From: Opitutus sp. GAS368
GTDB taxonomy: Bacteria; Verrucomicrobiota; Verrucomicrobiia; Opitutales; Opitutaceae
Assembly: GCA_945871005.1 (NCBI GenBank)
Contig: CAMBUJ010000001.1
Span: forward strand, 1-59,361
Length of the DNA stretch: 59,361 nt
Direction of reading: 5' to 3'
This document shows, one piece after another, positions 1,155 to 36,801 of this stretch (position 1 is the stretch's first letter; each line of letters begins with the position of its first letter). The notes beneath the pieces are model-generated. The model was given only the letters and a program-made list of their open reading frames with translations, had not been told where the DNA came from and did not search any database. The translations under genes and the position numbers were made by a program.

Positions 1155-1245
1155 GCTACGACCTCGGATCAAAATCGCTCAGCGATCTCGCTACGTTCGG
1201 AGTCCGGAGCGCAGAGTGTAGCCTGACGACGGAGTCGTTGGGTTT
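1155..1245 (-). repeat. Cloverleaf-type intergenic repeat, copy 1
   Basis: On the minus strand this reads as half of the element with the hairpin ACGACTCCGTCGT (plus-strand 1218-1244), a short linker, then the other half with CGTAGCGAGATCGC and its hairpin (1166-1195). It matches the copies at 9.4, 10.7, 25.4 and 34.8 kb. No coding potential was seen in 1111-1322. A run of 11 C residues (1302-1312) separates the repeat from the end of the esterase gene. Confidence 0.75.
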
Positions 1246-9273: not shown

Positions 9274-9348
9274 GCAGGCGTAGCACAATGGATAGTGTAG
9301 CGGTCTCCGAAGCCGTAGATGTGGGTTCGATTCCCGCCGCTTGCACCA
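9274..9348 (+). tRNA. tRNA-Arg (anticodon CCG, reads CGG)
   Basis: A 75-base cloverleaf with encoded CCA. The acceptor GCAGGCG pairs with CGCTTGC, the D stem GCAC with GTGT, the anticodon stem GCGGT with GCCGT around loop CTCCGAA, and the T stem GTGGG with CCCGC around TTCGATT. The anticodon CCG assigns arginine. A terminator follows within 10 bases. Confidence 0.95.
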
Positions 9349-9410: not shown

Positions 9411-9447
9411 CGTAGCGAGATCGCGCAGCGATTTTGATCCAAACCCA
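9411..9447 (+). repeat. Cloverleaf-type repeat, half copy
   Basis: CGTAGCGAGATCGC, then GCA, then GCGATTTTGATCC reproduces the 5' half of the family element, including the hairpin ATCGC-GCA-GCGAT. It lies just downstream of the tRNA terminator. The other half is missing. Confidence 0.65.
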
Positions 9448-9743: not shown

Positions 9744-10634
9744 ATGGATAACCTCATCACCGCCGCGCCCCACTTGGTTGTTTTCGGTGCCGGTTATGTC
9801 GGCGCGCGGGTGATCGAGCAGGCCCTGGCGCGGGGGTTGCAGGTCACCGCCCTAACCCGGAATCCCGAAAAAGCCTGCGCCTTGTCGATCGCCGGAGCCG
9901 ATGTCATTCTCGCCGATCTGGCCGCGAGCGACTGGCACGAACGGCTGCCGGGCGGGGCCGATTTGGTACTCAATTGCGTGAGCTCTGGCGGGGGCGGTCC
10001 GGAGGCTTACTGGCACAGTTACGTCGAGGGCATGAAGTCGGTGCTAGGCTGGGCGGTGCAGGTGCCAGTGGGGACGATTGTCTACACCAGCAGCACCTCG
10101 GTTTATCCCCAGGGTGGGGGCGACCGGATCGACGAGCGCGCCTCGGTCGAAGACTCCCGTTTGCAAGGCAATCCCTTGGTCGAGGCCGAGGACCGCCTGC
10201 TGGGCGCGGGATTGCGCAGCTTTGTGCTGCGCCTAGCCGGCATTTACGGTCCGGAGCGGCATTACCTGCTAGATCAACTCCGCTCGGGCTGTGGCGAAAT
10301 CGCCGGACTGGGTGAGCATCACCTTAATCTGATTCATCGCGACGACATCGCCGGGGCGATTTGGGCGGCGTTCGCGGCTCCGGCCGAAGTTGCCGGCGGG
10401 GTGTTCAATGTCGCCGACGACGGCGCTGCGCCCAAGGCGGAGGTGGCCGCCTTTTTGGCCGGGAAACTCGGGATGGCTGTCCCGCGCTTTACGGGCAGTC
10501 CGGCCGAAGGGCGCCGTCGAACCACCCCGGACCGGGTGATTGCCAACGACAAAATGAAAGAGGTGCTCGGGTGGCGCCCGCTTTATCCCACTTACCGCGA
10601 GGGCTATGCCCCGTTTTTCGGCGCGACCCGCTGA
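9744..10634 (+). CDS. Atypical NAD(P)-dependent SDR/epimerase (YeeZ-like)
   Basis: A 296-residue Rossmann protein. The N-terminal FGAGYVGARV is the NAD(P)-binding Gly motif. VYTSSTSVYPQGGG is the strand-4 Ser motif, and LRLAGIYGPERH and HLNLIHRDDIAGAI are extended-SDR blocks. At the position of the catalytic YxxxK the sequence reads NPLVEAEDRLL, with neither Tyr nor Lys. This fits the atypical YeeZ-like group better than true nucleotide-sugar epimerases. The substrate is unknown. Repeats flank it on both sides, so it is probably monocistronic. Confidence 0.8.
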   Translation: MDNLITAAPHLVVFGAGYVGARVIEQALARGLQVTALTRNPEKACALSIAGADVILADLAASDWHERLPGGADLVLNCVSSGGGGPEAYWHSYVEGMKSVLGWAVQVPVGTIVYTSSTSVYPQGGGDRIDERASVEDSRLQGNPLVEAEDRLLGAGLRSFVLRLAGIYGPERHYLLDQLRSGCGEIAGLGEHHLNLIHRDDIAGAIWAAFAAPAEVAGGVFNVADDGAAPKAEVAAFLAGKLGMAVPRFTGSPAEGRRRTTPDRVIANDKMKEVLGWRPLYPTYREGYAPFFGATR

Positions 10635-10688
10635 GGTGAATGGCGGGGAGGGAATGCGTGGAACGTCGCGCGAAACTTAGCTCCGCGG

Positions 10689-10970
10689 CGTAGCGGGAGC
10701 GCGAAGCGATTTCGATTCGGCGAAAACCCAACGACTCCGTCGTCAGGCTACGCGTGCAAGCGGGGCGGAGGCTCCGAGACGTAGCGGGAGCGCGGAGCGA
10801 TTTCGATTCAGCGAAAACCCAACGACTCCGTCGTCAGGCTACGCGTGCAAACGGGGCGGAGGCTCCGAGGCGTAGCGGGAGCGCGAAGCGATTTCGATTC
10901 AGCGAAAACCCAACGACTCCGTCGTCAGGCTACGCGTGCAAGCGGGGCGGAGGCTCCGAGGCGTAGCGAC
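10689..10970 (+). repeat. Three-copy tandem array of the cloverleaf element, 91 bp period
   Basis: Units begin CGTAGCGGGAGCGC at 10689, 10780 and 10871, with a partial fourth at 10962, exactly 91 bp apart and nearly identical. Each has a 64 bp core that can pair CGTAGC with GCTACG around three hairpins, plus a 27 bp linker containing CGGAGGCTCCG. The array abuts the 3' end of yjdM. Short open frames across it encode the same peptide three times and reflect the repeat, not a gene. Confidence 0.92.
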
Positions 10971-11306
10971 TCAGGCGAGACTGATCTTTTTAACAAAACA
11001 CGCCTTCAGGGCCAGCGCGGTGCCTTCGATTTTGCAGTCAATCTCATGGTCGCCGTCGACCAAGCGGATGTTTTTGGCTTTGCTGCCCTGCTTTAAGACC
11101 TGGGATGAACTGCCCAGTTTTAGGTCCTTGATCAGAGCGACGGTGTCGCCATCGGCGAGGACATTGCCGTGGGCGTCCTTGACGACGCGGGCGATCTCGG
11201 GGGCGGCATCCTTCGGCCACTCGTGGCCGCAGGTGGCGCATTCCCAGTGGGCGGAATGGCTGAGGACGTCGTCGAGGGTGCAGGCAGGGCAGGCGGGATT
11301 GGACAT
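10971..11306 (-). CDS. yjdM: Zinc-ribbon protein of the YjdM/PhnA family
   Basis: A 111-residue protein with an N-terminal zinc ribbon (CPAC at the start, CATCGHEW about 18 residues later) and a C-terminal SH3-like barrel containing DAHGNVLADGDTVALIKDLKLKG-type sequence. This matches YjdM (formerly PhnA), once linked to alkylphosphonate use, whose molecular function is not settled. The start at MSNPACPAC (11306) was chosen because family members begin just before the first CxxC; an ATG eight codons upstream is less likely. The stop codon lies directly at the edge of the 91 bp repeat array. Confidence 0.9.
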   Translation of the reverse strand: MSNPACPACTLDDVLSHSAHWECATCGHEWPKDAAPEIARVVKDAHGNVLADGDTVALIKDLKLGSSSQVLKQGSKAKNIRLVDGDHEIDCKIEGTALALKACFVKKISLA

Positions 11307-11501
11307 GGTGGCGAAAAAGATCTGGGCCAAGCACGGGCCGAGCCGGTGGGCATTTCAATCTCCAAGTGCTCCCGCCTTGCCGGTGCGCCGAGCGTATTTC
11401 CGCATCGCCGTGGGCCTAAGGGGCACCATGCTCGGGCCGAACTTCGCCCCGCCTGTTTTGCTGCTTGCGCCGACTGTGCGCTCCCGTCGTTACCCCCCCT
11501 G

Positions 11502-25427: not shown

Positions 25428-25591
25428 CGTAGCGGAGCGACGGAGTCGTTTCGAGGCCGGCGGATCGAAATCGCTGCGCGATCCCGCTACGTTTCGGAGC
25501 ATGTGCTTCGCCTGAACACGTAGCGGGACGACGGAGTCGTTTCGAGGCCGGCGGATCGAAATCGCTCCGCGATCCCGCTACGTTCCGGAGC
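25428..25591 (-). repeat. Two-copy array of the cloverleaf element in reverse orientation
   Basis: Cores begin at 25428 and 25519, again 91 bp apart, and each runs 64 bp to a terminal CTACG. In the second core CGTAGCGGGA pairs with TCCCGCTACG, TTTCGA with TCGAAA, and two side hairpins (CGAC-GGA-GTCG and TCGC-TCC-GCGA) branch off. The reverse complement aligns with the 10.7 kb units. No gene was found in 25410-25695. Confidence 0.9.
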
Positions 25592-26280: not shown

Positions 26281-26313
26281 AAAAACGCCCGCCGGGCGCG
26301 GGCCGGCGGGCGT
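26281..26313 (-). terminator. Terminator after pgi
   Basis: An 11 bp GC-rich stem (ACGCCCGCCGG / CCGGCGGGCGT) with a 7-base loop is followed on the minus strand by five T residues, about 60 bp past the pgi stop. Confidence 0.88.
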
Positions 26314-26314
26314 C

Positions 26315-26353
26315 GGGGAGGGCAGTCGGGGAGGGCAGTCGGGTAGGGCAGTC
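26315..26353 (+). repeat. 13 bp tandem repeat, three copies
   Basis: GGGGAGGGCAGTC occurs twice, then GGGTAGGGCAGTC once, head to tail in the pgi 3' untranslated region. Confidence 0.85.
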
Positions 26354-26371
26354 GATTTGGCTGCGTGGGAC

Positions 26372-34748: not shown

Positions 34749-34832
34749 TCGAAATGACTCCGTCGTCAGGCTACGCGTGCAAGCGGGGTGGAGGCTCCGT
34801 GGCGTAGCGGGATCGCGGAGCGATTTTGATTC
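34749..34832 (+). repeat. Cloverleaf-type intergenic repeat, single copy
   Basis: 34749-34775 carries the right half with hairpin ATGAC-TCC-GTCGT; its C to T change keeps a G:T pair. A 27 bp linker with GGAGGCTCC follows. 34803-34832 carries the left half CGTAGCGGGATCGCGGAGCG. The order matches the phase of the 10.7 kb array. Confidence 0.85.
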
Positions 34833-36724: not shown

Positions 36725-36801
36725 GGAGCGCCGAGCTCCAGCTCGGCTCTGGGGTGATTTGGCGTGAGCCCCATTCAGGCCGAGCTGGAGCTCCGCGTTC
36801 C
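36725..36801. repeat. Inverted repeat of the CGAGCTGGAGC family
   Basis: Arms 36725-36747 and 36779-36801 match as reverse complements at 21 of 23 positions around a 31-base loop; inner GAGCTC sites make each arm itself partly palindromic. A lone arm is at 24891. No gene was found in 36599-36890. Confidence 0.85.

Follow-up and report, generated by a model that had tools for sequence, protein, structure and literature searches.

A tandem dimer array in an Opitutus genome, probably a BIME-type cluster of a GTAG-tagged REP family

The 91-bp array at positions 10680-10968 of the window (the whole stretch of 59,361 nt analysed here, from Opitutus sp. GAS368) is best read as a BIME-type dimer cluster of a GTAG-tagged REP family that has spread between genes, and a probability of about 0.78 is assigned to this reading. 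The unit is a half of 26 nt, consisting of CGTAG, a 9-bp stem and a 3-nt loop, and the 64-nt core is made up of two such halves in inverted orientation. Among the options raised in the preliminary description, that of a REP/BIME-like element is supported by stem covariation, 272 copies in the genome, intergenic placement and a patchy presence in relatives.

The array and its 26-nt half

Tandem Repeats Finder (TRF) returned a period of 91, 3.2 copies and 95% matches at 10680-10968, confirming the tandem array that had been claimed there. Each repeat consists of a REP dimer (BIME) in which X and Y stand head to head, followed by a linker of 27 nt. Using R1, a covariance model describing the half, X halves were located on the forward strand at 10689-10714 (39.9 bits), 10780-10805 (42.4 bits) and 10871-10896 (39.9 bits), and Y halves on the reverse strand at 10727-10752, 10818-10843 and 10909-10934 (41.2 bits each). 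The array gap is convergent, being bordered by a NAD-epimerase-type gene (9744-10634, forward strand; Pfam) and yjdM (10971-11330, reverse strand; Pfam YjdM, 2.4e-27). In two congeners, G005 (3 contigs) and G012, the array is absent from the syntenic epimerase-yjdM gap and an R1 search of that gap was empty, the gap being occupied by other sequence. In G005 (locus L154) an unrelated direct repeat, GAGCTCACGAAGGGTGTGGCCTTGAGCGT..., was observed, so that one gap carries different repeats in different species.

For analysis of the half, both strands of 35 stretches of the window's genome (G000; 160,393 bases) were read, and 169 halves, 61 of them distinct, were retained by a filter demanding CGTAGC together with 8 or more of the 9 stem pairs. 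These halves, and the 42 clusters described below, represent 35 contigs chosen by a match to the array unit rather than the whole genome. Stem covariation across the 61 distinct halves was 0.511 as compared with 0.223 after shuffling, with none of 500 shuffles scoring as high, and it dropped to 0.06-0.125 when the stem was slid along the half. Paired cells amounted to 95.8% in the half stem, a figure inflated because all 61 rows had already passed the pairing threshold of the filter, and 92 of 549 cells were doubly changed. Stem pairs 2, 3, 6, 7 and 8 vary on both sides, pair 7 being C-G in 30 halves and G-C in 30. Two of the five covariation measures did not exceed the shuffles, namely double-change pairs (5 against 4.4) and further pair types (13 against 13.3). 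The stem is irregular by virtue of G.T wobbles near its base: pair 4 is G.T in 57 of the 61 distinct halves, and at least one G.T pair is present in each of the 169.

The loop, which lay outside the filter, conforms to GNA in 158 of 169 halves. The variable loop noted previously in the first hairpin is real, with seven types in the 169 halves, GGA being the commonest (GGA 119, GCA 23, GAA 16, AGA 5, GGG 3, TGA 2 and GAT 1). Because the half filter itself required the tag, the tag was tested separately by searching for cores without it, and GTAG was found to precede 130 of 143 such cores. A box, TCCGG, often lies 5' of CGTAG, the two being separated by AA in X halves (59 and 65 of 80) and by GG in Y halves (52 and 60 of 78). 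In 58 of the 138 unique upstream stretches the dinucleotide CT is found 8 bases ahead of CGTAG, which is a lead only; E. coli TnpA-REP cleaves at CT (PMC8266576). The computed stability of the Y hairpin differs slightly between strands (-4.7 kcal/mol for the tag strand and -3.5 kcal/mol for its complement). GNA triloops with G-C closing pairs are described in PMC4686876 as extraordinarily stable DNA mini-hairpins, and the conserved triloops may thus point to a role in single-stranded DNA, which would fit DNA over RNA. In a search of the window against Rfam at the gathering score only a tRNA (9274-9345) was matched, with no other structured-RNA family.

Copies, dimers and placement

In shuffles the pattern CGTAGC-N30-60-GCTACG averages 0.03 occurrences; in the window it occurs five times, three of them within the array and the remaining two at 25.4 kb. 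The covariance model identified 15 halves in the window at E < 0.01, and a stricter script 13, as compared with a mean of 0.04 and a largest value of 1 in 100 first-order Markov sequences. The further copies indicated in the preliminary description at 1.2, 9.4, 25.4 and 34.8 kb are all real, although not all of them are 64-bp cores. Two tandem Y-X dimers are present at 25428-25582, downstream of a DUF5069 gene, with R1 halves at 25428-25453 and 25519-25544 on the forward strand and at 25466-25491 and 25557-25582 on the reverse strand. At 1.2 and 34.8 kb there are instead pairs of halves with their GTAG ends facing: an X half at 1170-1195 (reverse strand, 37.4 bits) tail-to-tail with a Y half at 1217-1242 (forward strand, 32.6 bits), and a partly decayed Y half at 34750-34775 (reverse strand, 21.1 bits and a pattern match) tail-to-tail with an X half at 34803-34828 (forward strand, 42.7 bits). 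The copy at 9.4 kb is a lone X half (9411-9436, forward strand, 39.2 bits) about 60 bases past tRNA-Arg (9274-9348). A 13-bp tandem repeat, GGGCAGTCGGGGA, was also recorded by TRF with 3.7 copies at 26308-26354, about 0.7 kb past the 25.4-kb dimers.

The window's genome (3.48 Mb in 305 contigs, 91.7% complete, family Opitutaceae) contains 119 matches to the array unit and 272 matches (140 + 132) to a loose pattern of the half, and the reversed pattern used as a control gave 0 + 0. Forty of the 42 clusters are intergenic, against 6.1 expected and a maximum of 13 in 300 random placements, as called by a home-made gene finder using codon usage (codon log-odds). This gene finder missed yjdM and scored the array gap as codirectional, whereas Pfam shows it to be convergent; the counts have been left as printed. 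Both neighbouring genes were called for 32 clusters, of which 17 lay in convergent gaps, 13 in codirectional and 2 in divergent ones, such that 30 of 32 were not divergent, and the convergent excess has a Fisher p of 4.6e-6 against a background of 7/71, obtained by subtraction from 103 gene pairs. Near-identical arrays on C122 and C259, C115 and C181, and C164 and C287 may represent one locus each, and the clusters are therefore not all independent. Two of the checks proposed in the preliminary description, intergenic enrichment (40/42 against 6.1) and stem covariation (0.511 against 0.223), were thus both positive, and the purely local duplication it had set against them, restricted to the array and lacking covariation and intergenic enrichment, is contradicted on all three points.

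The halves fall into two types, 86 X with a stem tip such as TCGC/GCGA and 83 Y with the tip CGAC/GTCG, whose arrangement follows a strand rule. Among neighbours within 120 nt, all 59 head-to-head pairs and all 58 tail-to-tail pairs are X-Y, and the 10 same-strand pairs are X-X (8) or Y-Y (2), the rule being obeyed in 127 of 127 neighbour pairs. Since tandem duplication makes pair counts dependent, a count by cluster is fairer, and all 35 clusters containing at least two halves have X and Y on opposite strands. The rule is weaker in relatives, where X is joined to Y in 13 of 15 opposite-strand pairs and one same-strand pair of four departs from it. Head-to-head spacing ranges from 9 to 94 nt. 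Many of the 119 matches in the genome form tandem arrays, which carry array-specific linkers and have their own periods, for example 89 (C181), 105 (C221), 115 (C44) and 121 (C251). It has been suggested that heterodimers escape the clearance of long perfect palindromes (PMC3733652), and the strict X/Y heterodimer rule fits this suggestion.

Relatives and the transposase

Of 13 genomes from the genus, nine had an R1 match at E 0.01, with at least 150 in G000, 56 in G009, 29 in G011, 8 in G004, 5 in G005, 3 each in G002 and G008, and 2 each in G001 and G012; G015 (one contig, 6.0 Mb) had no R1 match even at E 1. At the family level, 18 of 250 sampled genomes and 5 of 49 genera were positive (E 0.001), and at the order level, using stricter filters, 6 of 372 sampled genomes, all six of them Opitutaceae. 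A degenerate half pattern identified six stretches among genome contigs, two of them Opitutaceae MAG contigs and the remainder three from Antrihabitans and one from a Prevotellaceae, with single matches each that are taken for chance; viral contigs contained no exact match to the commonest Y half. As far as sampled, the REP family is confined to Opitutaceae. Most of the halves seen in relatives carry CGGAA/TTTCG as their lower stem, as compared with CGGGA/TTTCG in G000, a form also found in G012 and at two G005 loci, both of these genomes having few copies. No wobble was present in 5 of 59 halves of 26 nt from relatives. A search for empty sites at the dimer loci L004 and L037 placed the two flanks in different regions of the relatives; the flanks being non-syntenic, no clean insertion was seen there.

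RAYTs are regarded as the enzymes that mobilise GTAG REPs, and their genes frequently have the same REP on their flanks (PMC3733652 and PMC8266576). The statement that the window holds no transposase agrees with a search covering Y1_Tnp, as the single Y1_Tnp gene of G000 is on contig C128. This gene encodes a REP-associated tyrosine transposase (RAYT; NCBIfam NF047646, 85.1 bits at a cut-off of 80) and sits between palindromes with the core CGAGCTCCAGCTCG, which differs from the X/Y family and has 11 copies in 36 G000 stretches, two of them at the C128 RAYT. Besides the X/Y family, a second REP-like palindrome family (GGARCGCCGAGCTCCAGCTCGGC) was observed on both sides of the same gene (L031, 1368-2118); copies of this family exist elsewhere too, two of them in the window (36731-36793).

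The RAYT link considered in the preliminary description was not found. In none of 65 Y1_Tnp stretches (26 + 30 + 9, from 13 genomes of the genus and 10 positive genomes of other genera), 14 of them shorter than 3 kb and at a contig end, did the X/Y family flank the gene, the best R1 match having an E of 0.05, and the one RAYT of G000 has another REP. At E 0.05, a 9-bp perfect palindrome with GTAG and the loop TGC lies at 2794-2819 of L148 (G173:C357), at a distance of about 0.9 kb beyond the gene of a true RAYT (97.4 bits), which is itself directly flanked by another GTAG palindrome, GTAGGAGCCTGCTTGCAGGC. The palindrome at 2794-2819 is a plausible relative of the X/Y family, which makes it a lead and no link. 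The RAYT gene of L142 (G184:C559) has GTAG palindromes of the GTAGCGCAGGCTTCCAGCCTGC type on either side; one palindrome of this type was also noted in G000 (L035, about 4027). Seventeen Y1_Tnp matches were recorded in G053 (genus g42), several of them representing proteins of about 320-345 aa that are matched in two pieces, and AGGGACAGGCT is located upstream of two of its Y1_Tnp genes (L147 and L151). The RAYTs found with other GTAG palindromes in relatives indicate that GTAG REPs and RAYTs live in this family of bacteria and that the partner of X/Y is the missing member. A neighbouring gene as mobiliser was considered and rejected, as no ORF cluster was common to three or more genomes (1404 ORFs of at least 90 aa, within 1.5 kb).

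Given an assembly of 91.7% completeness in 305 contigs, the absence of a flanking RAYT is no proof against one, and because copies are found near contig ends (C18:73, C75:3, C76:10 and C79:8) a partner RAYT may sit in an assembly gap. Loss of the cognate RAYT, or its failure to be assembled, is considered most likely, and action of the present C128 RAYT in trans less likely. A burst of more than 270 halves with a strict X/Y rule, beside a foreign RAYT as the only one, might tentatively be attributed to trans use helped by the GNA-triloop hairpin or to RAYT-free spread, but this is rated as rather doubtful.

Alternative readings and known REP systems

The preliminary description had drawn the 64-nt core with an outer CGTAGC/GCTACG pairing and three internal hairpins; a cloverleaf of this kind that works as a single body, whether structured RNA or DNA scaffold, now appears hardly credible. 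The three array units and the two 25.4-kb dimers can be drawn in this manner and the outer tags pair in thermodynamic folds of six whole dimers, but an outer stem is the trivial result of two inverted tag copies. A dimer with a single fold would need X and Y to vary together, and covariation was found inside each 26-nt half and not between halves, the lower-stem variants of X and Y being uncoupled (275 identities against 277.3 in permutations, 44 unique combinations). Of 51 unique dimers, 40 allow the complete middle hairpin TTTCG...CGAAA, only a little over the 32.4 of 51 obtained with shuffled spacers. Variable head-to-head spacing and the existence of lone halves and tail-to-tail pairs, some in this window, also oppose a single body, and the cloverleaf is largely refuted by the uncoupled halves and the near-shuffle middle helix.

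Retention of the halves for a host function (3'-end mRNA protection, a terminator-like role or protein binding), with spread as a secondary matter, is improbable. Sites between convergent or codirectional genes would suit such a function, and roles of this kind are discussed for REPs in PMC3733652, but 272 copies here against 5 (G005) and 2 (G012) R1 matches favour a burst over an old shared function, and the orthologous gap in G005 and G012 is without the element. Orphan REPs with no dedicated transposase, multiplied by replication slippage and gene conversion only, would accord with the lack of a flanking RAYT in the 65 stretches, with the array-specific linkers and with CGTC REPs reported without a transposase (PMC3733652); slippage accounts for arrays but not for dispersal to 42 separate sites in the contigs examined or for patchiness in five genera, and this explanation is unlikely. 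Under the preferred reading, a BIME-type cluster of a dispersed REP family, the halves would have spread as hairpins while the DNA was single-stranded, with an HUH tyrosine transposase (RAYT/TnpA-REP) presumably recognising tag and stem in a strand-specific manner, and X-Y dimers would then have been duplicated locally by slippage or recombination, giving arrays with their own period. The 272 pattern matches, set against 5 and 2 model matches in two congeners, offer a clear case in which to ask how a REP burst begins and whether a REP depends on a RAYT of its own.

Pseudomonas REPINs are inverted REP pairs dispersed between genes and tied to a RAYT. The X/Y family resembles them in having inverted pairs between genes, the difference being that a RAYT flanked by the same REP, as in a REPtron or RAYT-mobilised REPIN, was found in 0 of 65 stretches. 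Alternating orientation, linkers and tandem repetition, the marks of a BIME, are all present. As in the E. coli REP/BIME system described in PMC8266576, GTAG accompanies an imperfect palindrome with an irregular stem, and a REP and an inverted REP are joined via a linker in consecutive tandem copies; the irregularity consists of G.T wobbles in X/Y and of a mismatch bulge in E. coli, and X/Y has a GNA triloop and no cognate RAYT found, unlike E. coli REP/BIME with TnpA-REP.

The closest likeness is to GTAG-type REPs, which are palindromes of 20-40 nt with unpaired GTAG at one end; the 26-nt half agrees with this and has the complementary stem changes, high copy number and extragenic, mostly convergent or codirectional placement of that type. 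O. terrae is an Opitutus and hence of the same bacterial family as the window's genome. GTAG REPs have been reported from species including O. terrae, where they are called highly enriched (PMC3733652; Di Nocera et al. 2013). The likeness to those REPs extends to the GTAG tag, a stem of 6-13 bp, G.T pairs, complementary stem changes, loops of 2-3 nt in many families, head-to-head and tail-to-tail dimers including heterodimers, reiteration of dimers in tandem with flanking DNA, and a position downstream of genes. The X/Y family was not described in the literature searched, which included the RepRanger paper and the available text, as distinct from the consensus sequences, of PMC3733652. The X/Y repeats thus seem to form a new REP family with the already known GTAG-type architecture, adding a GTAG REP family that is confined, within the sampling, to Opitutaceae.
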